Shown: positions 6,660-21,623 of the stretch, in pieces | Layout: every line of letters begins with the position of its first letter | Position numbering within the stretch: the first letter of the stretch is position 1 | Origin: Chlorobaculum sp. | GTDB taxonomy: Bacteria > Bacteroidota > Chlorobiia > Chlorobiales > Chlorobiaceae | Length of the DNA: 41,195 nt | Direction: 5' to 3' | Assembly (NCBI GenBank): GCA_013334655.1 | Contig: JAAXXD010000013.1 | Location: forward strand, 1 to 41,195 | Notes under the pieces: model-generated | Database searches by the model: none | Told to the model about the DNA's origin: nothing | Seen by the model: only the letters and a program-made list of their open reading frames with translations | Program-made: the position numbers and the translations under genes

Positions 6660-8684
6660 ATGCTGACAACAATTGCCGAGAATCTGGGCGCTGCAATCGG
6701 CAGCAAGTATTTGCCGAACACCAATCAGCTTCTCTTTACCGAGTATTCGAAAGGCGCTCTTAGCGTGCTGGATCTTGTCGCGCCGTCCACAGGCACCGTT
6801 TCATCGGGTACGACGATTATCAAGGGCACCTGGATTTTTGACTGCGAAACAGGTACGCTCGGAGGCGATATGACCAATATCTACGATATCTGGTGGGAAC
6901 AGATCGATAACGTCAAAAGACAGATCGTGCCGATGGCCGGGGTTGGTATCATCAATCTCGGGCCGGTCGATTTCAATCTGTTGACGCCCGCCGTTTTGCA
7001 GTCTCTCTCTTACGGTTCGACTCCGATTCCCGGCAACAACGATGCCACCAACCAGCTGACGGTAAACGATGTGTTCGCGGTACGCACAAAGTCCGGTAAC
7101 ATCGCCAAGATCAAGGTTTTGCAGTATGGCTACGACCTCAAGATAGAGTGGGTGACCTACAAGTTCGCTTCGCCGTACCATACCATCGGAACGGGCTATG
7201 CCACACCGGAGGATGTCGTGACCAGCGCCAATGGACTGACGGCATACGTGACGGAACGAACCGGATCGCTGGTGAGGGTTGCCTTGAACAATGCGAACCG
7301 GGCCGCCGCGACGGTTATCGCCGCCGGTTTGCAGGCACCGCACCAGATGTGCCTCGACGAGCAGCACAATCAGATATTCGTGGTCGAATTCGCCAATCCG
7401 GGGCGACTGATCCAGATCGATCTGAACACGAACAAGCAGAAAGTTCTCCTCAACGGCCTGAGCAACGCCATAGGTCTGCTCGTGTCGAGCGATCTCGCCT
7501 ACGCCTATATCAGCGAGCAGTCGGGTGGCGGAAAGGTGACGAAGTACTCGCTTCAGGGGAAGGCCCCGGTTGTGCTCGCTACCGGGCTGACCAATCCGTT
7601 CTTCCTCACCTGGGCCGATGCGTCGAAATCCTCTTTCTTCGTTGCCGAACGTGATCCGGCAAACCGCGTGACGCTGCTCAAGACCGAACTGGGCGCAGGC
7701 AACGCCGTTCAGGTTGTCACCGGCACGGGAGCGCGCCCGTCGAGCGTGGCGTGCGTTGGCGCTTCGCAACTTCTGGTCTGCTGCGATACCATGATCCAGA
7801 AGACCGATATTCTTTCGGGAATTTCATTGCCCACAGGTCTTTTCAAGGGAATCGGACTCGTCCCCTGGAATCTTGTCACCGCCGCAGGTTACGCTGATAC
7901 CACCACGCAGCCTGTATACCCATACCAGTTCGCAAAAAATTCACCATTCGGTGGAGTTCTTTCCTTGCAGTTCAATCATCCACTTGCATCGCAGCAAGGC
8001 GTAAAGTATTACAGGGTACTGGTGGATGCGACTCCAAGAATGGATACCTGGTGGGATCTCAAGCTCAATACGGCAAACGGGAAATATGAAATTCCGGTCG
8101 AATTCAAACCGGAGACCAAATGGGGTAAAGATGGATGTTATCTCATTCACCAGCCGGGCGTATTCTATATGAACAGCGATCTCGGGCTCATCATGAACAG
8201 CGTCTCGGTCGCGAACGGCAAGCGAGCGTTCACAATCGAATTTTATACAGACGCCGGAGTCAAGGTGCAGCAGCAGGTGGTGTATGTCATGATCGACAAC
8301 AACATCTGTACGGCGGCGATGGATATGCCGGAAATCGGAGGCGTTTACGCTACGACCGATTGCGGTATGCTCAAGTATAACAACGTTGCCGACAAGCTCT
8401 CGATCCGGTATGTCGCTTCTCATCCAACCCTTCAGGCAACCTACTCATGGCGCGTTGGCAGAGCTGGAAAGGGGCCGGTTCTTGGCGTGCCGGAGTGTTG
8501 CGTGGATGGTCAGGCGCAGCTCGCCCCATTTACCTTCCAGAAAGATGTGGGGGCTCTTCTGGGCGCTTGCACGAGCGCGGCGTTCTATGCGAGTGTTTAT
8601 GTCGCCGCCAGAGCGATCAACGGCTTCGGACGGCAGAGCCAGTATGACCGTTCGGTCACTATCGCATTTGCTCTGACGCACTGA
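6660..8684 (+). CDS. Large beta-propeller-like protein of unknown function
   Basis: A 674-residue protein starting at an ATG with a good GGAG site. Residues about 180-400 contain repeated strand-rich units resembling NHL/SMP-30-type propeller blades, for example GYATPEDVVTSANGLTAYV, LQAPHQMCLDEQHNQIFVV and LSNAIGLLVSSDLAYAYIS. These suggest a six- or seven-bladed propeller that reads values along a ligand or surface. The C-terminal part (about 420-674) has alternating beta segments with several Cys (CCVDGQ, CTAAMDM, TDCGMLKY). There is no signal peptide, membrane segment or catalytic motif that I recognise. It stands alone between an IS remnant and a dehydrogenase and ends with its own terminator. 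Function unknown. Confidence 0.75.
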   Translation: MLTTIAENLGAAIGSKYLPNTNQLLFTEYSKGALSVLDLVAPSTGTVSSGTTIIKGTWIFDCETGTLGGDMTNIYDIWWEQIDNVKRQIVPMAGVGIINLGPVDFNLLTPAVLQSLSYGSTPIPGNNDATNQLTVNDVFAVRTKSGNIAKIKVLQYGYDLKIEWVTYKFASPYHTIGTGYATPEDVVTSANGLTAYVTERTGSLVRVALNNANRAAATVIAAGLQAPHQMCLDEQHNQIFVVEFANPGRLIQIDLNTNKQKVLLNGLSNAIGLLVSSDLAYAYISEQSGGGKVTKYSLQGKAPVVLATGLTNPFFLTWADASKSSFFVAERDPANRVTLLKTELGAGNAVQVVTGTGARPSSVACVGASQLLVCCDTMIQKTDILSGISLPTGLFKGIGLVPWNLVTAAGYADTTTQPVYPYQFAKNSPFGGVLSLQFNHPLASQQGVKYYRVLVDATPRMDTWWDLKLNTANGKYEIPVEFKPETKWGKDGCYLIHQPGVFYMNSDLGLIMNSVSVANGKRAFTIEFYTDAGVKVQQQVVYVMIDNNICTAAMDMPEIGGVYATTDCGMLKYNNVADKLSIRYVASHPTLQATYSWRVGRAGKGPVLGVPECCVDGQAQLAPFTFQKDVGALLGACTSAAFYASVYVAARAINGFGRQSQYDRSVTIAFALTH

Positions 8685-8711
8685 CAGGCGTGAACCATTC
8701 CATCTGATGCC

Positions 8712-8748
8712 AAAGAGCCGCAATCTGTTTTCAGGATTGCGGCTCTTT
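8712..8748 (+). terminator. Strong hairpin terminator
   Basis: A 14-bp perfect stem (AAAGAGCCGCAATC with GATTGCGGCTCTTT) around a nine-base loop lies 28 bases after the propeller-like gene. The arm ends in TTT, consistent with intrinsic termination. It separates that gene from the following dehydrogenase. Confidence 0.85.
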
Positions 8749-8795
8749 GCGCTACCTTGAATCCGGTGATATTTCATAACCAACACTCACAAATG

Positions 8796-9539
8796 ATGAA
8801 AAACAAAATTGCACTGGTAACTGGCGCGAGCAGGGGGATTGGACGGGCTACGGCGAAGCTGCTGGCCGCCGAGGGGGCGGCGGTGGCCGTCAATTACTTC
8901 CAGAGCGAAAGCGCGGCTCGCGCCGTCGTCGATGAAATCACGCAGGCTGGTGGCAGGGCGCTGGCCGTCCGGGCGGATGCGCGTGACGAGGCGCAGGTTC
9001 GCGCGATGGTCGCTGATGTGGAGCAAAGCCTCGGGCCGGTCGATCTGCTTGTCGCCAATGCATCGATCGGCTTTCCCGTCAAACCCTTCACGCAGTTCGC
9101 TTGGGGCGAGTTCGAAGCCAAGCTCACCGGCGAGCTGAAGTCGATCTTTTTCTCTTGCCAGGCGGTGCTGCCTGGCATGATCGAGCGGAAATCGGGCAGC
9201 ATCATCGCCATTTCGAGCACCCTCTCGCGCCACTCCTCGCCGGGTTTCATCGCTCACTCGACGGCCAAATCGGGCCTCGACGCTTTCGTGCGCTCGCTTG
9301 CCGAGGAGGTCGGTCCCTTCGGCGTGCGCGTCAATGTGGTCGCCCCCGGCCTCACGCTCACCGACGCCACGGCCTGGCTGCCCGAGGAGCAGAAAGCGAT
9401 GATCGGCGAGATGGCACCGCTGAAGCGCGTCGCCCTCCCGGAAGACATCGCCGGAGTGGTGCTCGCCATCGCCTCCGACCACAGCCGTTTCGTGACCGGC
9501 TGCTACATCCCGGTCTCAGGAGGCTTGCTGATGCTGTAA
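8796..9539 (+). CDS. Short-chain dehydrogenase/reductase (FabG-like) with altered active site
   Basis: A 247-residue Rossmann protein. The nucleotide-binding TGASRGIG motif lies at residues 9-16, as in NADP(H)-dependent 3-oxoacyl reductases. Serine 140 (AISST) and Lys158 are present. The position four before the Lys, normally the catalytic Tyr of YxxxK, is His154 (HSTAK). The structural NNAG motif reads ANAS at 87-90. The rest of the fold, including the NVVAPG loop and the C-terminal SGG, is normal. It is therefore either a reductase with changed chemistry or a non-catalytic binder; an ordinary FabG role should not be assumed. Of two adjacent ATGs (8793 and 8796) the second fits the family start. 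Substrate unknown. Confidence 0.88.
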   Translation: MKNKIALVTGASRGIGRATAKLLAAEGAAVAVNYFQSESAARAVVDEITQAGGRALAVRADARDEAQVRAMVADVEQSLGPVDLLVANASIGFPVKPFTQFAWGEFEAKLTGELKSIFFSCQAVLPGMIERKSGSIIAISSTLSRHSSPGFIAHSTAKSGLDAFVRSLAEEVGPFGVRVNVVAPGLTLTDATAWLPEEQKAMIGEMAPLKRVALPEDIAGVVLAIASDHSRFVTGCYIPVSGGLLML

Positions 9540-9604
9540 CAGCGCAGGTGAGTATGCTTTCGGAGTTTGAATGGTATTGCTGCGATGTGGTTGAAAGTAC
9601 CATA

Positions 9605-10278
9605 TCAGTGAGCAAGACCTTCGAGTTCTGTTATCCAGTTGTTGAATAACGGGCAGGACTGGCGCATTTTCGGGATGCCAATTGCCGTGGCGATGGCAAT
9701 TCCGGTTGTTGTTTTTTTGAACCGGTTCGAGAGTTTTTCCAGCCTTTTAGATGGTGCGTTGTCGGGTGATCATTGATCTGCTCCGGTTCGCCGCACTCGT
9801 CGAGAATCTGTTCGATTGATTTTTGCGGCACTCCAGACTTTTCAGCCAGGAAATGCGGGTCACTGAAATAGAGGGCTTCGATTTCGTACATGGAAACATA
9901 AGGAATGAAGCGTCGGGCGGAATCAAAATCTGCGAACAGGCTGTTGACCTCATCAACCGTAGCCCGGTTCATGATTTGGGCTTTCCGGGTATGCTCTGTC
10001 TGTTTTTTTGATCCCGCATATCCCGGCCAATCGCTGTCAATGCCGTAGTAATCGACAAAGAGCGTTATCCAGGTGTTTTTTCTTTGTTTCAGATGTTTCC
10101 CGATGTCATTCCGGGTGCGCGCAAATTGGACATCGCCACCTTTTTCTCCGGGTTTCTCCAGAATGACAGGGGTGAGATAGATGCCTTGCTGAGCCAGATA
10201 TGGAGCCAGCAACTGCTTGACGAAGAGTTGCTCTGTCGGTCCCTCTGAAAGCACAATGACCTCCGCATAGCTACTCAT
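9605..10278 (-). pseudogene. DUF4276 family protein, frameshifted near the C-terminus
   Basis: The protein opens with VIVLSEGPTEQLFVKQLL, the typical DUF4276 start, which has the acidic, Toprim-like look of these putative nucleases, and continues with VDYYGIDSDWPG and YEIEALYFSDP. After EQINDHPTT the frame runs into unrelated sequence ending at 9631. A one-base shift near 9757 restores the expected tail APSKRLEKL through CPLFNNWITELEGLAH, ending at 9605. The ATG overlaps the end of the upstream ATPase gene by 8 bases, so the two were one operon. ATPase plus DUF4276 pairs are common in defence islands and resemble OLD/PARIS-type logic (ATPase plus Toprim-like effector). Because both genes are broken, the pair is probably dead. 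Confidence 0.8.
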
Positions 10279-11221
10279 ACGTGGTGCCTCCGGCGATGAT
10301 ATTTCTTGTCAAGAGTTCACCGACGGAATATTCGTTCAGCCATTCATCGAAATCGGCGCGTTGCAACCGCTCAAAAACGGACTGTCCCTCCCGGCGATTC
10401 ACCACGACAATATCTTCTATCGAAAACTGATCAAGCAGCAGGGGCGATTGCGTTGCGACAATAATCTGGGTTCGTTTGGCCGCGTCTCGAATCAGCTCGC
10501 CGAGAATCCTGATCGCTTCGGGATGCAGCCCCAGTTCCGGTTCGTCAATGACGATGACCGATGGCGGAAACGGATTTAACAGGGCCGTAGCGAGGCAGAT
10601 GAAACGAATCGAGCCGTCGGAAAGGTGAGAAAGTCGGAGCCTTTTTGTTGCCAGTCGAGTTTTACTTTTTCCGCTTCACCTTTTTTCTGAACATCGAGTC
10701 GAAAGTCGTCGAAAAACGGCATGACCAGCCGAACGGCATTGATGATGTCCTGATAATATGAATGGTAGCCGGTTTTCAATTTCAGCAAAAACGGAGCGAC
10801 GTTGCCGCCGTTACTTCTGAGCTTTGTATTGTCTTCGATGATCTCATAACGACGCATTGGGGCCGATGAACTGGTATCATGAAAGTGATAGACCATCCAG
10901 TTGGCTATGGACTGGTAAACAAAATAGCCAACGCCATGTCCTGTTCCTGTTGCGGATGTTTCTTCCCGCTTTTCGTACAGGCTACTTTCCTGTGATGGGC
11001 TGCAATAAGAGCGCCAGTTCGTTGTGATGTATTTCCGTTCTTCACTGACAAGAAAGGCCTCCTCTACGGTAGGTGTCAACTCAAAACGGTAGTAGTTCGA
11101 TCCTTGGCTGAATGCGCTATGGGGCTTGAATTCAAACTCCATCGATATTGCCCCTTTTGCTTCTTTTGGCGACAACGGCTTTGGGCGTGCAGTGTTTTGC
11201 TGGTTTCCTGAAACTCTCCGT
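10271..11221 (-). pseudogene. AAA-type ATPase (AAA_15/21-like), 5'-truncated and frameshifted
   Basis: The retained part holds the middle of an SMC/OLD-like ATPase (EFEFKPHSAFSQGSNYY, NAVRLVMPFFDDF) and, after a one-base shift near 10633, its C-terminal ATPase half. That half contains LSHLSDGSIRFICLATALL (signature-like), VIVIDEPELGLHPEA (Walker B) and IIVATQSPLLLDQF. No Walker A P-loop is found; the frame closes at a stop at 11222-11224, where the restriction gene remnant begins. It therefore lost its 5' end in a fusion or deletion. It stops by overlapping the start of the DUF4276 gene. Such ATPases sense and gate the partner nuclease in known systems; here the gene is a relic. Confidence 0.8.
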
Positions 11222-11289
11222 CATGCAGCGGGATCAGGATTTTTTCCGTATCAGCGATCATTAAGCGAAACCTTCATAAGACAGCGCCT

Positions 11290-11808
11290 ACCCATGCCCA
11301 ATCCTGAAATCCACGCATATACCGCCTCCGATTGTTGCTCAACGCCCACCGCATCGACGGCGGTGACGGCGCTTGCGCCACCCGTCGAAACATCGTCTTG
11401 CAGCCGCACGATCTTGTCCGACAGCTCGTCGTTTTGATACAACGCCCACTCGTTGCCGTCCGTGAGGAGCGTGTTCGCCATCGCTGAAAAGCGATTGAAC
11501 CGCTCGCGGTTTCGCCCCTTGAAGCGCTTTGTGTTCGCGCCCGAAACCGGAGCCTTGAGTTCGTCATATCCCGCCAGTGCCTGATTGCGATGGATGGCGA
11601 AATCGGGCTGACCGAGCCGGTCAGGCAGCGGCGTTTCGCCCGTGAAGACCACCATCCAGCCAAAAATCTCCGCCACGCCTGCCATGAAATTCTCGAACGG
11701 AGCGTGAATTTACTCCTCCAGCTCGCCCGGCGTGATCTGATTCATCTTCTCCGTAATGGCGGTGGCGAACGCTTGCAGAGCCTTGAGGATTGAGTTGGTG
11801 CTTGTCAT
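11290..11808 (-). pseudogene. N-terminal remnant of the type IIG restriction-modification gene
   Basis: The remnant starts with MTSTNSILKALQAFA and follows residues 1 to about 168 of the intact enzyme encoded at 16564, including the nuclease segment PDFAIHRNQALAGYDELKAP. An in-frame TAA at 11710-11712 replaces the codon for Gln33. A frameshift near 11335 moves the frame before RGFQDW. The Glu-x-Lys of the nuclease motif is kept (ELK), while the residue before it has changed (Val to Asp). Sequence identity extends slightly upstream of the ATG (AATGGCATGACAAGC). It joins an ATPase remnant, so a deletion removed the methylase half of this copy and the ATPase start. The orientation is opposite to the intact copy. 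Confidence 0.9.
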
Positions 11809-11990
11809 GCCATTACAATGCTTGGGGAATAAGGTACATCGAGGCGTGTTTACCTCAATATAACGTATCGCAAACGGAATTTATACGTCAGTACTCTTGC
11901 AGGCTGAGAGAAAATGTTTTTCGCCGCAAGGAAATACCGCAATTAATACCATCGTCAACTGCGGCATCGGCGCTCAGCTCAATCCGAAGG

Positions 11991-12299
11991 TCACGAATGA
12001 AACTCGATCTGCAGGCTGTTGTCTGCGGCTTCTTTCATCGTGTAGGTGCCTTTCGGGTGGATAGTGAGGCCAATCGGCGGCGCGGCGTCGAGAATTTTCG
12101 AGGAGATGCTCTCCGCTTCGTCAGCCGAGCAATCGGTGTTGATGAACAGATCGAGCGAATGCGACTCCTTGCCGAATTGCAGCAGGAAGTGGTTGTGATC
12201 GACAAAGACCAGGTCTTCGTAAGCGTAAGTCACTTCGTGACCAATCGACTCGATCAGCTCCATGACGGTGCCCAACGGGCGTAGTGGTTCTGTTTCCAT
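11991..12299 (-). CDS. Small conserved-looking protein of unknown function
   Basis: A 102-residue cytoplasmic protein beginning METEPLRPLGTVMELIES, with an AGGA site just upstream of the ATG. It alternates predicted strands and helices, is rich in acidic residues and has no signal peptide, membrane segment or Cys cluster. Codon use matches the GC-rich chromosome, supporting a real gene. I do not recognise the family. It is divergent to the 84-residue gene at 12483, with a 183-base gap likely holding both promoters. Confidence 0.65.
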   Translation of the reverse strand: METEPLRPLGTVMELIESIGHEVTYAYEDLVFVDHNHFLLQFGKESHSLDLFINTDCSADEAESISSKILDAAPPIGLTIHPKGTYTMKEAADNSLQIEFHS

Positions 12300-12482
12300 G
12301 ATTCCTGATGTACTGATGACCAGTGGGAGCTTTTTTCCGGGAAGTCTCCGAGGTCTGTTGAAAAGGTTGTGCCGGTTTAGTTTTGTCTTGTTGTTGCTAT
12401 TGTTAAAATGATAAGGTAAATTAGATAAAAGTCCTAAAAACGATAGGTAGTATCTTGCAATAATGTAATAAAGGAGGCTCGT

Positions 12483-12737
12483 ATGGCGGTCAGCGCATTA
12501 CAGACATGGGAGAAGGTTCTTGAATATGCTTCAGTTCCACTGCATGGAACCATGTCGAGAAAAATCCGAAAAGGGGTCAAGCTTCAGATCAACGAAGGGA
12601 AAGTGTACGAAGACGCGGTGCTTTTCATCAGCGACTTGTTCCTGCGTGTGACCGAGGAGTCGGAAGGGGTGTCGGTCAACACTTACTACGACATCGATTC
12701 AATCGCCAGCATCAGGACTTACAGCAGCAAGGAGTGA
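12483..12737 (+). CDS. Small protein of unknown function
   Basis: An 84-residue protein with a strong ribosome-binding site (AAAGGAGG at 12472-12479). The text reads MAVSALQTWEKVLEYA followed by a strand-rich half with a VYEDAVLFISDLFLRV segment, suggesting a small beta barrel or PilZ-like size, but no motif is decisive. Codon use is typical of the chromosome. No signal sequence. Stand-alone; function unknown. Confidence 0.7.
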   Translation: MAVSALQTWEKVLEYASVPLHGTMSRKIRKGVKLQINEGKVYEDAVLFISDLFLRVTEESEGVSVNTYYDIDSIASIRTYSSKE

Positions 12738-12933
12738 CATTCATTTACTTGCCTCATGTTCGGGACAATGGGAGATGTTGACCATGGCAGTAAATTCAGG
12801 GCCATAAAAACAGCTCTTACCTTGGTTATATGACGCAGAGTGACTGCCCGAAATATCTGGTTTCAAGCACTTCAGGCAGTCAACTCATGCAATATCAAAC
12901 GTGTCGTCGCTTTTAAATTTATAGTTAATTCTG
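12738..12933. other. Intergenic region
   Basis: Converging ends of the 84-residue gene and the EpsD-like gene. No gene or clear hairpin with a T-run was recognised. Confidence 0.4.
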
Positions 12934-14286
12934 TCAGACAGCGCTCATCCTCAAGGTTATAACAACGCTGACAAGAACCAGCACGCCAAGAAGCGTGGCA
13001 ATGATCAGGTAGGTTTTTCTTGACCACGCTTGTAAAATTCCGAAATTCAGCAACCGGCTTGCAATAATACCGGCGATGATACCGATTGCAATGCTTGCGA
13101 ATAACACCAGCGCATCGATCTTGTTCCATAGCAGCATGATCGAGAAAACCATGGCCGCAGAGATCAGCAACACCATGACGGCAAGATATATGCGACGAGT
13201 CAGCGTCGATGTAGCTCGAATATCGTAATGCTGCGTCCGCTCGATGGAACTCGATGATCCAAACCAGAGTCGAGGCAACCAAGCCATGCTGTAAAGCGTT
13301 CGTATAACAGCCGTTACCATCATGACCGCCAGTATGAACGAAAGAGATAGGCCAGAAGCAAGGAGAATATTTTTTCGGAATGCCTTTTTTGTTTTTTCAG
13401 TGTCAGGTTCCGGCAGTGCTACAAGTTTGCTTTTGGCATCGGCTTTCTTTAAATATTCGTCATAATAGGTGATTTTTGCGCTATTGAGCTCATCATTCAT
13501 GGCTTTTGCCATCGCAACGTTTTTTTGATTCGATGCGATCATCGCCATTGCGGCTCTTCTGGCCGACTCGCCTTCGAGTGGTGTCGGATATGCGGCACGC
13601 AACAGCAAAATTATGGAGATATTGTCTCCTTTGCGAGCGATAACCTGGGCAACGTTTGGGTTGATCTGGTTGAGAAAAGAAAGAACTTGTGGCGGAATTT
13701 TTTCAGAAGTCAGGGCAATGAGCGTTTTGTTGAAGGGGATTTTTTTTGCCCTCAGTTCATCAAGAAGAGTGTTGAGTGGCGCTCCGTTTACTGCCATTTT
13801 ATCGAGCGATTCCAGCAGCGGCATGTCTACACCGGGAAACAGCACTTCGTCGTAAACGAAAAGTTTGCGTCCGGCAAACAGTTGAGGGGTGTTTTGAACA
13901 ACAGATTCCGCCTGATCAGCAGTAACCGGCGGTTGATTCCCCATAATCTTGCTCTCTGCCAGACCCGCCAGTACGTTTTTCTGGGCGGCATACAGCGCAA
14001 TGCTGTAATCTGGACTGTTATCGAGCTTCATCTCCTTACCTTTTCCCGCAAGCAGTTCGAGACTAACAAGGTCGGAAAGAATACGTCTTTTCAGGTTGGC
14101 AGACTCTGCGTCGCTCATGTTCGGCATGGCAGAACGCTGATAGAGGTACTCGATCTGGCGCTTGGTTATTTCAACGCCGTTGACCACTGCCGCGACACCG
14201 CTATCTGATTCTTTGGATGTCTGCTGGGAACATCCTGCAAGGATGCCGAGCAGCAGGGCGAAGAGAAGAGAGGTGAGTTTTTTCAT
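12934..14286 (-). CDS. EpsD-like peptidyl-prolyl isomerase-type lipoprotein with C-terminal membrane segments
   Basis: A 450-residue protein. The start at 14286 gives a lipoprotein signal with lipobox LAGC after about 20 residues. The following VVNGVEITKRQIEYLYQR resembles the SurA/EpsD N-terminal chaperone helix region, and the segment around 140-260 is parvulin-like in layout but weak. Unlike classic EpsD it carries four hydrophobic helices in the last 150 residues (for example IYLAVMVLLISAAMVFSIML), so it may be anchored at both ends. EpsD-type proteins accompany exosortase/PEP-CTERM exopolysaccharide systems, and the gene next door encodes a PEP-CTERM protein on the same strand. A bidirectional-looking hairpin separates the two, so they are probably transcribed separately. 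Confidence 0.7.
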   Translation of the reverse strand: MKKLTSLLFALLLGILAGCSQQTSKESDSGVAAVVNGVEITKRQIEYLYQRSAMPNMSDAESANLKRRILSDLVSLELLAGKGKEMKLDNSPDYSIALYAAQKNVLAGLAESKIMGNQPPVTADQAESVVQNTPQLFAGRKLFVYDEVLFPGVDMPLLESLDKMAVNGAPLNTLLDELRAKKIPFNKTLIALTSEKIPPQVLSFLNQINPNVAQVIARKGDNISIILLLRAAYPTPLEGESARRAAMAMIASNQKNVAMAKAMNDELNSAKITYYDEYLKKADAKSKLVALPEPDTEKTKKAFRKNILLASGLSLSFILAVMMVTAVIRTLYSMAWLPRLWFGSSSSIERTQHYDIRATSTLTRRIYLAVMVLLISAAMVFSIMLLWNKIDALVLFASIAIGIIAGIIASRLLNFGILQAWSRKTYLIIATLLGVLVLVSVVITLRMSAV

Positions 14287-14393
14287 GCTGCGAATAAATT
14301 GGATTATGCTGTCATGGCCATAAATACACATGGAAGTAAAGATAACATCAACTGGTCTAAATTGCACTAACAAATACCAGTATATTACTTGTT

Positions 14394-14433
14394 AAACAAC
14401 GAAAACCCGGAATTTCCCGGGTCTTCGTTGTTT
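14394..14433 (-). terminator. Hairpin terminator after the PEP-CTERM gene
   Basis: A 17-bp stem with one mismatch (AAACAACGAAAACCCGG with CCGGGTCTTCGTTGTTT) and a six-base loop sits 28 bases beyond the PEP-CTERM stop. On the minus strand the arm ends in TTT, consistent with intrinsic termination. The symmetric A/T flanks could also serve the opposite strand. Confidence 0.8.
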
Positions 14434-14460
14434 GCAACATCGCTCGTCAAAGACAATACC

Positions 14461-14949
14461 TCAAAGGGCGGCTTCCTCTTTCTTGCTCTCATAGAGCTTG
14501 CGGCCACCGGCAAGCAGTCCGCCGATGCCAAGCAGCATCACCGTCGCAGGTTCCGGAACCGGGCCTTGCGTTGAGCCCGCACCACCCGTGCTGACATACC
14601 AATTTACAGGGCCGTTAGTATCTGGAGAGGTCACTTGGAAATTTGGTATTACCCAACTATCAATTACATTAACATTTACGTCCATCCAAGTCCATATGGC
14701 CGTATGTCCACCACCTACAAGCTCACCCGTCCATCCATCAGGTGAGTCAATACCGGTCATTACACCTGATGTCACAAGTGTAACATTAGTACTTGAAAAC
14801 AAGGTGTCTTTAACGATCTCAAGATCATAGGTCCAAGTGTTAGGGCCAGTCGAGGTGTTAACAAAAGTGATTGCTGCCATTGCCTGTGAAGGCGCGAAAC
14901 CGGTCATCAGGGCGATGCCGAGGCCGATGGTTGACAAGAGTTTTTTCAT
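14461..14949 (-). CDS. PEP-CTERM sorting-domain secreted protein
   Basis: A 162-residue exported protein. The start at 14949 begins MKKLLSTIGLGIALMTGF and ends in an AMA-type signal peptidase site. The mature part is short, acidic and rich in Thr, Asn, Trp and Gly. The C-terminus has the sorting tripartite signal: PVPEPATVMLLGIGGLL (PEP motif plus hydrophobic helix) followed by RK and a charged tail. Such proteins are cut and exported by an exosortase, which is not in this window. The leader (15083-15200) matches the left end of the window, so at least two genes share this control region. The mature part matches no enzyme I recognise. Confidence 0.9.
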   Translation of the reverse strand: MKKLLSTIGLGIALMTGFAPSQAMAAITFVNTSTGPNTWTYDLEIVKDTLFSSTNVTLVTSGVMTGIDSPDGWTGELVGGGHTAIWTWMDVNVNVIDSWVIPNFQVTSPDTNGPVNWYVSTGGAGSTQGPVPEPATVMLLGIGGLLAGGRKLYESKKEEAAL

Positions 14950-15082
14950 GTTCGTCCTTTGTTTTTGTTGTGGCAAACTGCTTTACCGACAAAACAACCC
15001 GTGCGCGATACAATTACGTTTTCTTTTCGTACATCTTTCGAAAAGTAAAAAAAAACACGCAAATCGTCACTTTATCAGTAAA

Positions 15083-15200
15083 AGCAACGCAAACCGCTGT
15101 TCTTCGGAAAAAAGGGGTAAAAGGACTACTGAACGATTTACCTGTCCGCTCTGTCGAGAGGTTTGCAGTGAATCAAGGGTACTGCAAAATCGGATACTAC
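15083..15200 (-). promoter_or_regulatory. Conserved upstream block of the PEP-CTERM gene with dyad operator
   Basis: This block is about 118 bases long and aligns with 32-150 almost end to end. It contains the dyad TTTGCAGT-N11-ACTGCAAA at 15162-15188 and a second inverted pair, GGTAAA...TTTACC, around 15116-15142. Between the block and the ATG lie 130 bases, compared with about 30 bases to the window edge in the first copy; the GTCCTTTGTTT just upstream of the ATG is shared too. I infer a common regulator binding the dyads. Confidence 0.6.
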
Positions 15201-15388
15201 ATGTGGATGTTATAAAATATTATTCAGTTCCAAAAGAAATATCTTGATGGTTTCGATGATACATATGTCAAGAAGTTTGAGGAAATATATTAATTATATG
15301 CTTTCTGGTGCATCAAAGCGTTTTTTTTATTTCTCAAAAATATTATTTCTACGTTTCGACACCTGGTTTCGTGACAGATCATCACTGT

Positions 15389-15426
15389 AAAAATCCCCGC
15401 TCCGACGGTTTTCAGAACGAGGATTT
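15389..15426 (-). terminator. Terminator of the truncated SulP gene
   Basis: A 12-bp stem with two mismatches (arms 15391-15402 and 15415-15426), and on the minus strand a following run of five T. It lies about 50 bases after the stop of the SulP remnant and faces away from the PEP-CTERM leader. Confidence 0.65.
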
Positions 15427-15478
15427 GTCTTGATCAGCGCTGTCGTTTGCCGATGCGACGTTTTCCTGTCATCGCCCT

Positions 15479-15745
15479 TTACTTCTCCTCCCGTTTCACG
15501 CTGGCTACGAACCCTTCCGGGCGTCCTTCTTTAGGCAGGCCGAGAATCTGGCGGGCGCGGTCGAGGGCGTCGTCGATGTTGCCGTGGATGTTCTCTTCGC
15601 CGATCATATCGGCCAGGCCGTATTGCTGCATGGCGAAGATCGGCTGGGCGTGGACGCCGGAGAGGATCAGCTTCGTGCCGGTTTTCTGGCAGTCCGCGGC
15701 CAGCTCCTTCAGCATGTTCAGGCCGACGGCGGTGCTGGCGCTGAA
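15479..15745 (-). pseudogene. SulP-family anion permease, C-terminal STAS remnant
   Basis: Only the last 85-90 residues remain. STAVGLNMLKELAADC, GTKLILSGV and ADMIGEENIHGNIDDAL are the STAS domain that ends SulP sulfate/bicarbonate permeases. The reading frame continues upstream as nonsense, overlapping a truncated prenyltransferase gene on the other strand. The permease core (10-14 helices) is missing from the window. The gene therefore lost its 5' part at the junction near 15740. Its terminator remains. Confidence 0.82.
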
Positions 15746-16421
15746 CGACTGGTTCGACGTCGAGACCGACCGTATCAACGCGCCGTTGCGTCCGCTGCCT
15801 GCCGGAGTGGTGACGAAACGCGAGGCGCTCGCCTTGTCGGTAGTCGTTGCGCTCTCCGGTTGCGCTTCTGCGGCGATGATTGGGTTCAGCGCCTTCGTCG
15901 CGGCCTGCGCGATGCTGCTGCTGGGCGTGCTGTATGACTGGAAGCTCAAGCGGTACGGGCTTTTCGGGAATCTCGTCGTTGGTTTTTCGGTCGGCATGAG
16001 CTTCATCATCGGCGGCATCGCTGCCGGGAATCCATTCGAACTGGTGGTGCTCTTTCTTGCCGTGATGACGATGCTCGTCGATCTCAGCGAGGAGATCGCG
16101 GCAGACGCGCTCGATGTCGAGGGAGACCGTCAATCCGGCTCCCGTTCGCTCGCCGTCGTGCTCGGCCCTGAGAAAGCGATGCGCATCGCCGCAGGTATTT
16201 TCGCGCTGGTGATCGCGGGAAGCGCCGCGCCGTTCGCCGCCGGATGGTTCGGCTGGATGTACCTTCCGCCGATCATCGCCTTCGACGCCGCAGTCGCCTG
16301 GTCAGTCTGGCGGCTGCTCGACTCCCGGACACCCCGGAAGCTCCGCTATATCCGCCGCATCTACCTCGCCGGAACCGCTATGCTGCTCGCCCTGATCGCC
16401 ATCCGGCTCGTCGCGGGGTGA
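15740..16421 (+). pseudogene. UbiA-family prenyltransferase, 5'-truncated
   Basis: The segment begins inside the first Asp-rich motif, NDWFDVETDRINAPLRPLPAG, the prenyl-diphosphate-binding site of UbiA enzymes, and runs to the natural C-terminus through several hydrophobic helices. The second Asp-rich region reads DLSEEIAADALDVEGDRQSG. The first about 50-60 residues with helix 1 are absent; sequence before 15740 belongs to the opposite-strand SulP remnant, so the open frame from 15447 is a chance fusion. Relatives make geranylgeranylated lipids or quinones. The missing helix makes activity unlikely. Confidence 0.82.
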
Positions 16422-16563
16422 CGAAAATTGCTGGCTGTGGCAGCTCAGAACTCCGACATTGAAGTACCACGCAGGCGGAAAATGCTGCAAAAACTGGTAT
16501 GTTTATACAGAGCAAGCACAAACCCGCCTCGCTCGCTGAAAAATCTCCAAGCTTTCCAATGGC

Positions 16564-19500
16564 ATGACAAGCACCAACTCGATACTCAAAGCGTTGCAAG
16601 CGTTCGCCGACGCCGTTACCGAGAAAATGAACCAGCTCACGCCGGGCGAGCCGGAGGAGCAGGTTCGCGCTCCGTTCGAGAATCTCATGGCGGGCGTGGC
16701 TGAGGCTTTCGGATGGAAGGTGGTCTGCACAGGCGAAACGCCGCTGCCTGACCGGCTCGGTCGGCCCGATTACGCCATCCATCGCAATCAGGCGCTGGCG
16801 GGGTACGTCGAGCTGAAGGCTCCGGGTTCGGGGGCGAACGCGAAGCGTTTCAAGGGGAGGAATCGCGAGCAGTTCAAGCGCTTTTCGGCGATGCCGAACA
16901 TGCTTTACACCGATGGCAACGAGTGGGCTTTGTATCAAAACGGAGAGCTGGCGGACAAGATCGCGCGGTTGCAAGGCGATGTTTCAACCGATGGCGCGAG
17001 CGCCGTAGCCGCCGAAGATGCGGCGGGCATCGAGCGATTGCTGCGTGGATTCCTGCAATGGGAACCGTCCATTCCAACCGGGCGCAAAGGAAAAATCGAC
17101 CTCAAGGGCTTCGCCGATCTGCTCGCGCCGTTGACGCGCATGTTGCGCGACGACGTGACCGATGCGCTCAAAGACCCCGAATCGCCGCTCGTGCACCTCG
17201 CGCGTGACTGGCGGCAACTGCTCTTTCCCGGCGCTCCCGACGAGCAGTTCGCCGATGCATACGCGCAGACCGTGGCGTTCGCGCTTTTGCTGGGGCGTAG
17301 CGAAGGGGCCGATCCGCTCACGCTCGACAGCGCCGAAGCGGCGCTCGCCGCGCAGCACAACCTGCTGTCCCGCGCATTGCAGGTGCTAACCGACCCCGGT
17401 GCTCGCGCCGAGATGGACGCCTCGCTGAACCTCTTGCTTCGCCTCATCGCCGCCGTGCCGCCCGCGACCTTCACCGGCCCCGAAGATCCGTGGCTTTACT
17501 TTTACGAGGAGTTTCTCGCCGCTTACGATCCCAAGTTGCGCAAGGATGCCGGAGCCTACTACACGCCCGTCGAGGTGGTGCGCTGCCAGGTGCGCCTGAT
17601 CGACGACTTGCTCGTCAACCGCCTGAACATGCCACTCGGGTTTGCCGACCCCGGCGTCGTCACGCTCGACCCCGCCACGGGAACCGGCACCTACCTGCTC
17701 GGCGTCATCGAGCACGCCCTCGCGCGCGTCGAGTCCGAGCAGGGCGCAGGAGCCGTCGCGGGGCAGGCAACCGGGCTGGCCCGCAACCTCTACGGCTTCG
17801 AGCTGATGGTCGGCCCTTACGCCGTGGCCGAACTCCGCGTCAGCCGCGCCCTGCGCGACCGTGGCGCGTTGCTGCCAAAGGATGGCACGCATGTCTATCT
17901 GACCGACACGCTCGAAAGCCCCGACGCCAAGCCGCTTTCACTGTCCTTCTACCTGAAGCCGATCTCCGACCAGCACGAAAAGGCGCTAAAGGTCAAGAAC
18001 AGCGTGCCGGTGATCGTCTGCCTCGGCAATCCGCCCTACGACCGGCACGAAGCCGCGACCAGCGTGAACAAGGCGCGAACCGGCAACTGGGTGCGCTGGG
18101 GCGACAAGCCGAACGGCGCGGACGCGATCATCCGCGATTTCATCGACCCCGCCGTCGCCGCCGGGCATGGCGTGCATGTCAAGAATCTCTACAACCTCTA
18201 CGTCTATTTCTGGCGCTGGGCGCTCTGGAAGGTGTTCGAGCACCCTGCGGCGCACGGGCCGGGGATCGTGAGCTTCATCACCGGATCGAGCTACCTCGAC
18301 GGCGACGCCTTTTGCGGAATGCGCGAGCACATGCGCCGCCATTGCGATGAACTCTGGATTCTCGACCTCGGCGGCGAAGGGCGCGGCACGCGGCAGGACG
18401 ACAACGTTTTCGCCATCCAGACCCCCGTCGCCATCGCGGTTGCCGTGCGTTCGAGCAAAGCGCGGGAGGATAAACCCGCCACCGTCCGCTACGCCCGCAT
18501 CGAAGGCGCCCGCAACGAAAAACTCGCCGCACTCGACGCCATCGCCAACTTCGCATCCCTCGACTGGCAAGAGTGCGCCGACAACTGGCAAGCGCCGTTC
18601 CGTCCTTCGGGCAAGGGAGATTATTTCGACCTGCCGCTTCTGACCGATCTCATGCCGTGGCAGCAATCCGGCGTTAAAGCTGGTCGTACCTGGATTATTG
18701 CACCAGAGGAGGATTCTCTCAAAAAGTGCTGGAAGATGCTCTTGAATGCTGATAAAGATGAGCGCAAAACGCTTTTCAAGGATTCTCCAACCGGACGCAA
18801 ACTCCACGAATCCGCGACGCAACTTCCGCCATCGAGTGAGAAACTCAAACCTCTTTCAGAATTAGTCAAAGGTGAACATCCGACAACAATCATCAGATAC
18901 GCATTTCGTTCTTTCGACCGTCAATATATTTTTGCTGATGCGCGTATGCTGGACAGACCCGGCCCTGATCTCTGGCGGACGCATGGAACGCGGCAAGTAT
19001 ATCTATCAAGTTCTTTAACACAAGTTCTTGGATTTGGACCGGCTTTAACTGCATCCCCATTAATTCCTGATTTGCATCATTTTTCCGGACGCGGAGCAAA
19101 AGACACCATTCCTCTCTATCGCACCGCCAACGCTTCGGAGGCGAATATTCTGCCGGGCTTGCTTGACCTGCTGGGCGCGACGTACCGGCGCACCGTAACG
19201 CCGGAGGATTTTCTCGCTTATGTCTATGGCGTGCTGGCGCAACCGGCATTCACGGCGCGGTTCCACAAAGAACTCGAAACCCGCGAGCTGCGCGTGCCGC
19301 TCACCAAAGACGGCGAACTTTTCGAGCAGGTGCGCGGGACTGGCGCAAAGCTGCTCTGGCTGCACACCTACGGCGAGCGCTACGTGCCCGAGGGACGCAA
19401 AATCGGACAGGTGCCGAACGGTTTGGCGCGATGCACGAAAGCCGTCCCCGGCGACGCAGACGGCTATCCCGAAACCTTCGAGTACCACGACGCCACCCTC

Positions 19501-19875
19501 GCGCTCCACGTCGGCGACGGCGAGTTCGCGCCCGTCGCGCCGGAGCTGTTCGCGTTTGAAGTGTCGGGGCTGAAGGTGGTGCAATCGTGGCTGAAGTACC
19601 GCATGAAGAAAGGGGCGGGCAAGAAATCCTCGCCGCTCGACGACATCCGCCCAGAGCGCTGGACGAGCCAGTTCACCACTGAACTGCTCGAACTCCTCTG
19701 GGTGCTCGAAGCCACCATCGACGGCTACCCCAAACAAGCCGCGCTGCTCGAAACCATTCTTGCGGGCGACTGCTTTGGTGCAGGCGAACTCCCCGCCGTC
19801 CCCGAAATTATGCGTAGTCCGAAGAAAGCGAAACCAGCCACCGGCGACCTGTTTGATTTCGATGATGAAGGGTGA
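16564..19875 (+). CDS. Type IIG-like restriction endonuclease and N6-adenine methyltransferase
   Basis: A 1103-residue single-chain enzyme. Residues 1-160 hold a PD-(D/E)xK nuclease: Asp69 in GRPDY, then Glu83-x-Lys85 in YVELKAP. Next comes a helical connector, then the methyltransferase: YYTPVEVV (motif X) near 335, DPATGTGTYLLG (motif I, SAM binding) near 369 and NPPY at 489-492 (motif IV, amino-methylation). The C-terminal 600 residues should contain target recognition. The segment encoded by 18661-19110 (residues about 700-850) is clearly richer in A and T than the rest, as if swapped in. No helicase is seen, and no separate specificity or restriction subunit lies next to it. A truncated copy of its first 168 residues lies at 11290-11808. 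It may protect the cell or act as a stand-alone methylase. Confidence 0.9.
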   Translation: MTSTNSILKALQAFADAVTEKMNQLTPGEPEEQVRAPFENLMAGVAEAFGWKVVCTGETPLPDRLGRPDYAIHRNQALAGYVELKAPGSGANAKRFKGRNREQFKRFSAMPNMLYTDGNEWALYQNGELADKIARLQGDVSTDGASAVAAEDAAGIERLLRGFLQWEPSIPTGRKGKIDLKGFADLLAPLTRMLRDDVTDALKDPESPLVHLARDWRQLLFPGAPDEQFADAYAQTVAFALLLGRSEGADPLTLDSAEAALAAQHNLLSRALQVLTDPGARAEMDASLNLLLRLIAAVPPATFTGPEDPWLYFYEEFLAAYDPKLRKDAGAYYTPVEVVRCQVRLIDDLLVNRLNMPLGFADPGVVTLDPATGTGTYLLGVIEHALARVESEQGAGAVAGQATGLARNLYGFELMVGPYAVAELRVSRALRDRGALLPKDGTHVYLTDTLESPDAKPLSLSFYLKPISDQHEKALKVKNSVPVIVCLGNPPYDRHEAATSVNKARTGNWVRWGDKPNGADAIIRDFIDPAVAAGHGVHVKNLYNLYVYFWRWALWKVFEHPAAHGPGIVSFITGSSYLDGDAFCGMREHMRRHCDELWILDLGGEGRGTRQDDNVFAIQTPVAIAVAVRSSKAREDKPATVRYARIEGARNEKLAALDAIANFASLDWQECADNWQAPFRPSGKGDYFDLPLLTDLMPWQQSGVKAGRTWIIAPEEDSLKKCWKMLLNADKDERKTLFKDSPTGRKLHESATQLPPSSEKLKPLSELVKGEHPTTIIRYAFRSFDRQYIFADARMLDRPGPDLWRTHGTRQVYLSSSLTQVLGFGPALTASPLIPDLHHFSGRGAKDTIPLYRTANASEANILPGLLDLLGATYRRTVTPEDFLAYVYGVLAQPAFTARFHKELETRELRVPLTKDGELFEQVRGTGAKLLWLHTYGERYVPEGRKIGQVPNGLARCTKAVPGDADGYPETFEYHDATLALHVGDGEFAPVAPELFAFEVSGLKVVQSWLKYRMKKGAGKKSSPLDDIRPERWTSQFTTELLELLWVLEATIDGYPKQAALLETILAGDCFGAGELPAVPEIMRSPKKAKPATGDLFDFDDEG

Positions 19876-19964
19876 TAACGGAATCACTACATTCCAGAAT
19901 ATCCAGTAACCATCGAGCAGGAGGGGCTTTTCGGCTCAATCCGGCACTATCCGTTATCAAAAAA

Positions 19965-20408
19965 ATGAAGTACTCCGAAGCAAAGCAAGGCAGGGTTTTT
20001 GTCATCAGGCTTGAAGATGGCGACATTTTTCATGAAGAGATCGAGCGGTTCACGAAGGAAAAAGGGATCGCACGGGCGTACCTGAACGTGGTCGGCGGGG
20101 CGGACAAGGAGAGCTTGCTCGTCGTCGGGCCGGAGGAGAGCCGGGCCTATCCGGTCAATCCGATGGTGCATGAGCTGTACGACGCCCACGAGGTTGTCGG
20201 CACCGGCACCCTCTTCCCCGACGACGCGGGCAACCCCATCGTCCACCTGCACATGGCCTGTGGCCGCGGGGAGAACACCGTCACCGGTTGCGTGCGCAAT
20301 GGCGTCAAAGTCTGGCACGTCATGGAGGTCATTCTGGTGGAACTGCTCGACTCGACCGCCCTGCGGCTCCTCGACAAGGCCACCGGATTCAAGCTGCTCG
20401 TGCCGTGA
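19965..20408 (+). CDS. PPC (DUF296) domain protein
   Basis: A 147-residue single-domain protein. It begins MKYSEAKQGRVFVIRLEDGDIF, and the core has the PPC-type pattern ending in GNPIVHLHMACGR and VWHVMEVILVEL. The PPC fold forms trimers and is found in bacteria alone or with AT-hook DNA-binding tails in plants. His residues in HLHMA and WHVME may bind metal. An upstream in-frame ATG at 19872 overlaps the restriction gene, but the family start is 19965. It is downstream of the restriction gene on the same strand, 90 bases away. Exact role unknown. Confidence 0.85.
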   Translation: MKYSEAKQGRVFVIRLEDGDIFHEEIERFTKEKGIARAYLNVVGGADKESLLVVGPEESRAYPVNPMVHELYDAHEVVGTGTLFPDDAGNPIVHLHMACGRGENTVTGCVRNGVKVWHVMEVILVELLDSTALRLLDKATGFKLLVP

Positions 20409-20419
20409 AGAGCAGGGAC

Positions 20420-20484
20420 AAAGGACTTCAGGAACAACAGGGACAAATAAGACAATTCTCCCTTTTCAGTCCCTGAAGTCCTTT
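20420..20484 (+). terminator. Long inverted repeat between converging genes
   Basis: AAAGGACTTCAGG (20420-20432) pairs with CCTGAAGTCCTTT (20472-20484) across 39 bases that contain further GGGAC/GTCCC pieces. It separates the PPC gene and the alanine dehydrogenase gene, which converge, and could terminate both. Confidence 0.5.
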
Positions 20485-20519
20485 ATGTCCTTTAAGTCCC
20501 TTTCTTCTTCCACCCACCC

Positions 20520-21623
20520 TCACGCAAAGGGATTCTTTCCGCACTCCACGCCAAGCGAGCGGGCTACCGCTTCTTGCGTGATCGCGCCGTTGTAGACGTT
20601 GAGGCCGCCCGCGAGACCGGGCATGACCACCATGGCGCTCTCAAGGCCGAGATCGGCGAGACGGCGGACGTAGGGCAAGGTTACGCCGGTCAGCGCTTCG
20701 GTCGAGGTGGCAGGATAGGCGGCGGGCATGTTAGTCACGCAGTAGTGCACCACGCCCTCTTGGATGAACACAGGATCGAGATGCGAGGTCGGGTGAGAGG
20801 TCTCGACGCAGCCGCCCTGGTCGATGGCGATATCGACAATCACCGCGCCCGGCTTCATCGACTGCACCATGCCGCGCGTCACCAGCTTTGGCGCGCTCGC
20901 CCCTGGGAGCAGCACCGCGCCAATGAGCAGATCGGTGCCCGGCAGCAACTCTTCGAGATGCTGTTCGTTCGAGTAGATCGTGTGCACCTCCGGCGGCAAG
21001 AGCGCCTCAAGTTCGCGCATCCGCTCTTGGTCGGTCTCCATCACCGTCACCTCCGCGCCAATTCCTGCGGCAATCCGCGCGGCGCTCATCCCGGCGACCC
21101 CGCCGCCAAGCACAAGCACCCTGCCGGGCAGCACGCCAGGCACGCCGCAGAGCAGCTTCCCCTCGCCGCCGTTGTGCTTCGAGAGATAGTAGCCGCCCAT
21201 GAGCACGCTCATCTTTCCGGCAACCTCGCTCATCGGCGCGAGCAGCGGCAAGCGCCCGCCAACCTCGACAGTCTCGTACCCAATCGCCGTAACTCCTTCA
21301 TCCGATAGTACTTGCGCGAGACCCGGCACTCCGGCCAGATGCAGATAGGTGAAAAGAATCAGCTCCTTCCTGAAGTAACCGTACTCCCCTTCCAGCGGCT
21401 CTTTCACCTTGACGATGAGTTCGCTTTTCCAAGCCTCCGCCGCAGAATCGGCAAGCACCGCGCCCGCCAGCCGGTACTTCTCGTCGCTGAAGCCGCTCGC
21501 CGCGCCCGCACCACGCTCGACCACCACGCGATGGCCCGCCGCAACAAGCTGCCTCACGCCTGCAGGCGTACAGCCAACGCGCGTCTCGCGGGTCTTGATT
21601 TCCTTTGGAATTCCTATATTCAT
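20520..21623 (-). CDS. ald: Alanine dehydrogenase
   Basis: NAD-dependent oxidative deamination of L-alanine to pyruvate and ammonium, or the reverse. The 367 residues match the family. The start MNIGIPKEIKTRETRVGCTP is diagnostic, so ATG 21623 is chosen over an upstream in-frame ATG. Lys in VKVKEP and His in FTYLHLAG are the pyruvate-binding and catalytic residues. The NAD-binding GGGVAGMSAA motif is at about 175, and the C-terminal signature YPATSTEALTGVTLPYV is intact. It stands alone. In a phototroph it could supply or consume ammonium. Confidence 0.96.
   Translation of the reverse strand: MNIGIPKEIKTRETRVGCTPAGVRQLVAAGHRVVVERGAGAASGFSDEKYRLAGAVLADSAAEAWKSELIVKVKEPLEGEYGYFRKELILFTYLHLAGVPGLAQVLSDEGVTAIGYETVEVGGRLPLLAPMSEVAGKMSVLMGGYYLSKHNGGEGKLLCGVPGVLPGRVLVLGGGVAGMSAARIAAGIGAEVTVMETDQERMRELEALLPPEVHTIYSNEQHLEELLPGTDLLIGAVLLPGASAPKLVTRGMVQSMKPGAVIVDIAIDQGGCVETSHPTSHLDPVFIQEGVVHYCVTNMPAAYPATSTEALTGVTLPYVRRLADLGLESAMVVMPGLAGGLNVYNGAITQEAVARSLGVECGKNPFA

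Follow-up and report, generated by a model that had tools for sequence, protein, structure and literature searches.

The window, by which we mean the whole 41,195-nucleotide stretch of Chlorobaculum sp. DNA that was analysed, carries a type IIG restriction-modification gene. Its 1103-residue product combines a nuclease, a helical region, a gamma-class m6A methyltransferase and a target-recognition domain (TRD) in one chain. The gene and its catalytic motifs are as follows.

16564 to 19875, + strand: type IIG restriction-modification gene, 1103 amino acids (open frame, PADLOC match, AlphaFold2 model).
16765 to 16818, + strand: nuclease motif P68-D69 ... E83-x-K85 (PD-ExK; E83-L-K85), with D69, E83 and K85 invariant in a 40-row alignment.
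17668 to 17688, + strand: SAM-binding motif DPATGTG, residues 369-375, with D369, P370, A371, G373 and G375 invariant in the 40-row alignment.
18028 to 18039, + strand: methyltransferase catalytic motif NPPY, residues 489-492, invariant in the 40-row alignment.

The PADLOC model REase_MTase_IIG matches residues 12-1091 with 1181.9 bits. Pfam places N6_Mtase at residues 313-500 and Type_ISP_C (PF18135) at 695-1044 (258 bits), with a sub-threshold HSDR_N match, and the only NCBIfam match is likewise sub-threshold (22.2 bits against a cut-off of 720). The N-terminal PD-(D/E)XK, the DPAMGTG-type SAM motif with NPPY, and a single chain of about 1100 residues are all membership features of the TspGWI/TaqII subfamily of type IIG (IIC/IIS) enzymes, whose members typically cut at 11/9 beyond an asymmetric recognition site of 5-6 bp, with SAM affecting the reaction. 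The accessible part of PMC3384240 lists the DPAMGTG-type motif and NPPY in the subfamily's motif set, while that of PMC3751577 gives the TspDTI subfamily D-EXE in place of PD-(D/E)XK. Judged by these motifs, the enzyme is classed as a single-chain type IIG enzyme of the TspGWI/TaqII subfamily; in one alignment it is 46% identical to TaqII and 45% to TaqIII. Although the C-terminal Type_ISP_C domain is present, Pfam finds no ATP-dependent translocase or helicase domain, and we therefore do not call the enzyme Type ISP. Plasmid records label its relatives, TaqII's record included, as Type ISP.

Pieces of related genes lie nearby. The N-terminal remnant of a second enzyme copy (residues 1-175, 74% identical, one stop) occupies 11284-11828 on the − strand, and pairs with the intact gene as an inverted repeat of 492 nt, whose arms (11337-11828 and 16544-17035) are 85% complementary and separated by 4.7 kb. 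Adjoining the remnant are the candidate defence genes HEC-01A and HEC-01B (9631-11175, − strand). The HEC-01A frame has 199 residues against 360 at the orthologous locus of Chlorobaculum sp. 24CR (L027), and thus looks truncated.

Relatives of the gene have also been dismantled in various ways. In Chlorobaculum sp. W9 (L059, 2263-5547), the ends of the enzyme are kept (1 to about 236, and 927-1103), and a C5 methyltransferase with an NgoMIV-type restriction enzyme takes the place of the core. In Chlorobiaceae Zod_Metabat.1248 (L063, 5001-7693), the ends (1-69 and 952-1102) flank a full-length HEC-01A/HEC-01B pair, a defence module nested in the gene. A Candidatus Zixiibacteriota gene (L068, 5001-5525) is reduced to residues 1-51 and 1003-1098 with almost nothing between. 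Four same-genus genomes (L079, L080, L081 and L083) hold short C-terminal scraps within residues 955-1103 and no other part of the gene that we found; these are probably lost copies. A further gene, in genome G016, is split within the TRD (contig C1, 1204776-1206323 and 1332968-1333759; L097 and L098). A switch inside the TRD was first suspected there; instead, about 127 kb separates the halves, which both break off at a 1266-nt element present in two identical, oppositely oriented copies. The element codes for a transposase with HTH_21 and rve domains, and we take it to be an IS3 element. The arrangement looks as if the element had inserted and a rearrangement between copies had followed. As read from gene content and remnants, the enzyme locus shows a wider turnover of defence genes.

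History of residues 701-850

The part of the gene that concerns us here, and its borders, are given below.

18609 to 18680, + strand: left edge of the exchanged segment relative to Chlorobaculum sp. 24CR, gradual (nucleotide alignment; the blastn block ends at 18678, and at 18693 against G016).
18664 to 19113, + strand: exchanged TRD segment poor in third-position GC (GC3), about residues 701-850, comprising loops IV, V and VI, the jaw and helix H (GC3, identity profile, trees, residue mapping).
19108 to 19127, + strand: right edge, sharp, with near-identical DNA from about 19127 (nucleotide alignment; similarity to G016 resumes at 19108).

An earlier note on this DNA had described a low-GC patch at 18661-19110 (residues about 700-850) without a frame break, lying in the target-recognition region C-terminal to the methylase motifs, and had proposed sliding GC and codon plots. 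Both plots recover the dip. GC3 is 0.811 over residues 1-694, 0.392 over 695-852 and 0.761 over 853-1103, with edges in 25-codon bins at about residue 701 (nt 18664) and residue 850 (nt 19113). GC1 dips too over the same three parts (0.677, 0.557, 0.681), and GC2 is flat (0.454, 0.462, 0.442). In 150-base windows, GC is 0.45-0.48 from about 18675 to 19124 and 0.57-0.74 elsewhere in the gene, except at the two edges and the gene ends. The reading frame is unbroken throughout. The most GC3-poor 150-codon window has z = -11.0, and only one of 67 other long ORFs is equally extreme (median -2.2; the controls, at least 500 aa long, come from the same loci and were called with a simple ORF rule). The placement in the target-recognition region is also confirmed, since the patch is the base-reading part of the TRD, within Type_ISP_C.

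Comparison with the closest orthologue, L027, isolates the same block. Identity is 90, 95, 97, 92 and 85% in five parts up to residue 694, falls to 33% at 695-775 and 64% at 776-851, and returns to 89 and 89% in the parts from 852 to 1050, the tail (1051-1103) standing at 69%. Uniform divergence along the protein, which the note had named as its refutation, is not seen: only the block at about 701-850 differs sharply. Its suggestion of a swapped TRD can be kept for the exchange itself, which the orthologue comparison and the conflicting trees support, but not for its extent, as the exchange is confined to roughly the first 150 TRD residues.

Among three Chlorobaculum-group genes (the window gene, L027, and L070 in G016), flank identities are 0.89-0.93, while the left half of the segment is 0.26 identical between window and L027, 0.26 between window and L070, and 0.49 between L027 and L070. 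Across 407 gene pairs with flank identity above 0.6, segment identity does not climb with backbone identity (Spearman -0.10, p 0.04; the pairs are not independent). The window segment instead resembles those of a Chloroflexi gene (L011, 61%), a betaproteobacterium (L022), a planctomycete (L023) and G378 from the window's own phylum (58%).

Trees from 25 rows, hand-picked among the nearer relatives, conflict in the same manner. The backbone tree joins the three Chlorobaculum-group genes with support of 100/99, and the segment data reject that clade (p-AU 4.35e-05). Conversely, the backbone data reject a grouping of the window gene with L011, L022, L023 and L102 (p-AU 2.4e-94, a value weakened because the group was named after the alignment had been seen). 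In the segment tree, the window's starred group has seven rows, L037 and the long-branched L026 among them; several forks are weak, L050 and L026 sit on long branches, and the backbone bootstrap had not settled. At the level of sequence, these comparisons show that residues about 701-850 differ in history from the rest of the gene. The swap is thus supported by comparison and not by GC.

Two readings would dispense with exchange altogether. Point mutation, with selection for new targets, could have made the segment diverge very fast: the hypervariable base-contact region lies in it, and in Type ISP enzymes, too, the jaw is less conserved than any other part of the TRD, according to the accessible text of PMC4872093. 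We consider this very unlikely as the whole account, given that distant backbones share segment classes (as the window does with the Chloroflexi gene), that segment identity fails to rise with backbone identity, that the right edge is sharp and that the AU tests reject one shared tree; fast divergence under selection could nevertheless add to the difference. The second reading, that mis-assembly joined genes of two strains, has in its favour that the genome is a draft of 146 contigs. It is extremely improbable: the frame is intact, the conserved residues are in place, the AlphaFold2 model (mean pLDDT 86.8) is confident across the segment, and the same block differs in independent genomes.

With exchange as the preferred reading, we think it very likely that a type IIG enzyme of this subfamily has kept its backbone while its base-reading cassette, about residues 701-850, was replaced by recombination, and that low GC3 is a standing feature of the cassette. 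Replacement would have proceeded by homologous recombination in conserved coding DNA on both sides, the incoming DNA presumably coming from a homologue with another TRD class. Because the cassette holds the base-contacting elements of the TRD, such an exchange would switch cleavage and methylation to a new target at once, without separate subunits having to co-evolve.

Against this reading, the left edge is gradual at the DNA level, and the collections searched hold no donor with near-identical DNA, the nearest segment proteins being 58-61% identical; consequently the event cannot be dated, and it may be several events. At E 1e-5 nothing in the phage collection matches the segment; separately, one viral contig matches it at 39%. 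It matches 23 plasmid records; the 20 listed are 33.8-50.0% identical, the best among those listed being on Thermus. In its own genome (146 contigs, 84.5% complete) it matches only itself, and positions 8500-21000 contain no direct repeats of at least 24 nt. A silent-cassette or phase-variation TRD system was considered and rejected, as the draft genome shows neither a second cassette nor flanking repeats, and its only other piece of the family is the N-terminal remnant; given the completeness of the assembly, a cassette could lie in the missing part. With no second cassette found, we infer that the exchange was made with homologues entering from outside, and not by an internal shuffling system. 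Positions 18400-19400 yield no Rfam match at E 0.1 or better.

Third-position composition across the family

The note had taken the AT-richness of the patch as a sign of the swap, and here our results depart from it. The other two Chlorobaculum-group segments, which are of other classes, have GC3 of 0.47 and 0.39. We compared 57 relatives, represented by one best stretch per locus of at least 780 residues that starts at residue 260 or before; this leaves out shorter or split genes (for example L029, L053, L057, L058 and L070) and second copies of the same gene, and includes L067 and L103, which are identical to rounding over the compared part. Segment GC3 is below that of the rest of the gene in 52 of the 57 (mean -0.122, Wilcoxon 8e-10, rows not fully independent); 26 genes pass z -3, and no gene exceeds +3. 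In 41 genes the segment contains the centre of the most GC3-poor window, where about 16% would be expected by length. The difference in GC1+2 averages -0.003, so that the shift is synonymous on average.

The dip varies with the host gene. Segment GC3 regressed on backbone GC3 has a slope of 0.59, the dip being deepest in GC-rich genes and near zero in the low-GC3 near relatives L018, L021 and L028; five of the 57 genes show no dip or the opposite direction. In the 47 relatives covered by a comparison with neighbouring ORFs, segments are GC3-poorer than the neighbours in 44. A further 36 loci gave 27 passing rows, three of them (L074, L075, L095) already among the 57; the 24 new relatives match TspDTI-like and Type ISP enzymes in size, and 22 of them have lower segment GC3. 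Among the 27 rows, 15 have backbone GC3 printed below 0.50; the segment is still lower in 14 of these AT-rich genes, four of which lie beyond z -3. Windows of 150 codons below z -3 occur in 60% of family genes against 24% of control ORFs. TaqII and TaqIII share the dip (from 0.87 to 0.75 and 0.73). In EcoKI hsdS, our one Type I example, GC3 is 0.15-0.25 in both TRD regions, 0.42 between them, and 0.657 in hsdM.

These data bear on the idea that an AT-rich donor supplied the patch in a single recent import, with GC marking the event. The segment's GC3 of 0.39 does stand out from the other window ORFs (0.63) and the backbone (0.81), the segment is of a distinct TRD class, and the slope and the almost absent dip in L018, L021 and L028 are what a common AT-rich pool would give. 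Nevertheless, such an import is unlikely. Orthologues with other TRD classes dip equally, the dip recurs in most relatives, and its presence in nearly all of the AT-rich genes is not what donors from a single pool of constant composition would give. Finding the dip in most relatives, whatever their TRD class, would speak against a single import, and this is the result obtained. On this comparative evidence, low GC3 is best described as a standing feature of such cassettes in the enzyme family, and is not by itself evidence of recent foreign import. Since the dip is common to relatives and to other TRD classes, it can neither date nor source a particular swap.

Weaker codon selection at variable residues would also lower GC3, and GC3 outside the segment is indeed slightly higher at more conserved residues (0.656 to 0.703). 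At positions with at least 85% conservation, however, segment GC3 is still lower by 0.133 on average (50 of 57 genes). Since the shift is as large at conserved residues, residue variability is not its cause, and we regard this explanation as quite unlikely, a shade more so than a single import. A rare-codon or slow-translation reading is disfavoured as well, as most AT-rich genes, where AT codons are common, also shift to AT.

Two causes may lie behind the shift: that the segment, lacking homologous partners, goes without GC-raising gene conversion, or that its repeated supply comes from DNA richer in AT than the host in question. Mutation in bacteria is generally AT-biased. A segment that rarely finds a homologous partner would therefore drift to AT, escaping the biased conversion that acts on the exchanged flanks. 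This proposal is possible but tentative. It fits the occurrence of a synonymous shift in GC-rich genes and most AT-rich ones, the end of the shift near the segment edges, and the GC3 of the two Chlorobaculum-group backbones measured, which exceeds that of their neighbours. Against it, backbone GC3 equals that of neighbouring genes on average (0.704 and 0.700 over 47 loci), so that the flanks have no general excess; GC1 also falls in the window gene; and repeated sourcing from AT-shifted mobile DNA would look alike. Parsimony polarity of substitutions, which might separate amelioration from decay, is saturated at these divergences and its outcome depends on the outgroup.

We speculate, with some reserve, that swappable TRD segments in restriction-modification enzymes are generally marked by a synonymous AT shift independent of the host, in GC-rich and AT-rich hosts alike, caused either by a want of homologous partners for GC-raising conversion or by an AT-shifted mobile pool. 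If so, GC3 alone could locate specificity cassettes in uncharacterised enzymes, low GC in a TRD should not be read as horizontal import, and these segments would offer a testable case about GC-raising forces in bacteria. The recurrent shift may be new: the literature searched, mostly at the level of titles and outside subscription papers, shows no earlier description of a TRD-wide GC3 dip. Older work on low GC in hsdS is likely to exist.

Base reading, predicted targets and known systems

The accessible part of PMC4872093 describes how bases are read in the TRDs of LlaGI and LlaBIII by loops IV, V and VI, plus helix H in LlaGI, with methyltransferase loops I-III also taking part. Using those loop definitions and an alignment to LlaGI/LlaBIII and TaqII, the putative equivalents are as follows.

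18667 to 18690, + strand: loop IV equivalent, residues 702-709, SGVKAGRT, with K705 at the LlaGI 1226 position.
18946 to 18969, + strand: loop V equivalent, residues 795-802, with D797, R798 and G800.
19066 to 19101, + strand: loop VI equivalent, residues 835-846, with H838, S841 and R843.

Mapped through the profile alignment and TaqII, all of the TRD reading elements (702-709, 795-802, 835-846 and about 758) fall inside the exchanged segment, and outside it lie the conserved guide and the methyltransferase. What is exchanged is therefore near the minimum: some 150 residues with the base readers of the TRD, leaving nuclease, methyltransferase and guide untouched. Where in a fused restriction-modification enzyme natural exchange takes place bears on the prediction of methylation motifs and on specificity engineering. 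Since the segment carries base readers of the LlaGI/LlaBIII type, its exchange should change the methylated site, and to that extent we agree with the earlier note.

Contact positions published in PMC5587805 and PMC4872093, as far as the accessible parts of both give them, permit a tentative prediction of the target as 5'-GGCCGA-3'. Position 0 (G) would be read by S758 with R798 (compare TaqII S737/R777 and the arginine at the LlaBIII 1327 position), and position 1 (G) by D797, which aligns with an aspartate of LlaBIII that selects C in the opposite strand. For position 2, C is assigned from K705, with LlaBIII having the same GxKxGR pattern, and position 3 (C) from H838 (TaqII H817). S841-x-R843 (TaqII S820-x-R822) would give G at position 4, and position 5 is the methylated A; the alignment gap near S841-x-R843 is optional, as HHFSGRGAKD and HHFSSRGGKD are equal in length. 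For the 24CR orthologue, where an aspartate replaces H817 and RxS is found as in TaqIII, a more doubtful prediction is GACGCA. Both predictions are this cautious because the published code is itself a model for TaqII and TaqIII, with mutation tests described as still planned in the accessible part of PMC5587805.

The methyltransferase and TRD of the window enzyme resemble those of LlaBIII (Z 36.5, 784 residues, rmsd 5.5 A) and LlaGI (Z 35.4, 773 residues, rmsd 5.2 A) in fold and in base-reading loops, and the LlaBIII readers K and D-R recur in its loops IV and V; unlike those enzymes, the 1103-residue chain has no ATPase or helicase part that Pfam could find. The type IIG enzyme DrdV (7lo5) matches the model along its length (Z 34.4, 859 residues), but at about 20% identity and with an rmsd of 18 A, so that the domains are placed differently. 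Likeness to TspGWI, the subfamily prototype, comes from its published description (PMC2700111, accessible part) and includes PD-(D/E)XK, NPPY and a single chain of about 1100 residues; its target, ACGGA, differs from that predicted here. Type I HsdS and type IIG S genes, in the accessible parts of PMC3077401 and PMC3983042, likewise have target-recognition segments replaced by recombination in flanking conserved DNA. There, each S subunit has two TRDs and movement is repeat-mediated, whereas the window enzyme has one TRD in a fused chain and its draft genome no second cassette that we found.

The closest parallel is provided by TaqII and TaqIII of Thermus aquaticus YT-1, which share the window enzyme's subfamily, layout and contact positions. 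The accessible part of PMC5587805 gives their targets as GACCGA and CACCCA, with cleavage at 11/9, and reports that they are 93.4% identical, with most of the 71 differences in the putative TRD. Unlike the window enzyme, both are plasmid-borne and thermophilic; of the two plasmids named in that part, p61 is inferred to carry TaqII and p11 TaqIII, from lengths (1105 and 1101 aa) and contact residues. As in that pair, the Chlorobaculum enzymes are closely similar in their backbones, with the sharpest differences in the TRD. Since TaqII and TaqIII already establish TRD divergence with a changed target in this subfamily, the cassette exchange is a new case of a known kind. The Thermus enzymes differ by those 71 residues, and the Chlorobaculum case concerns a whole cassette.
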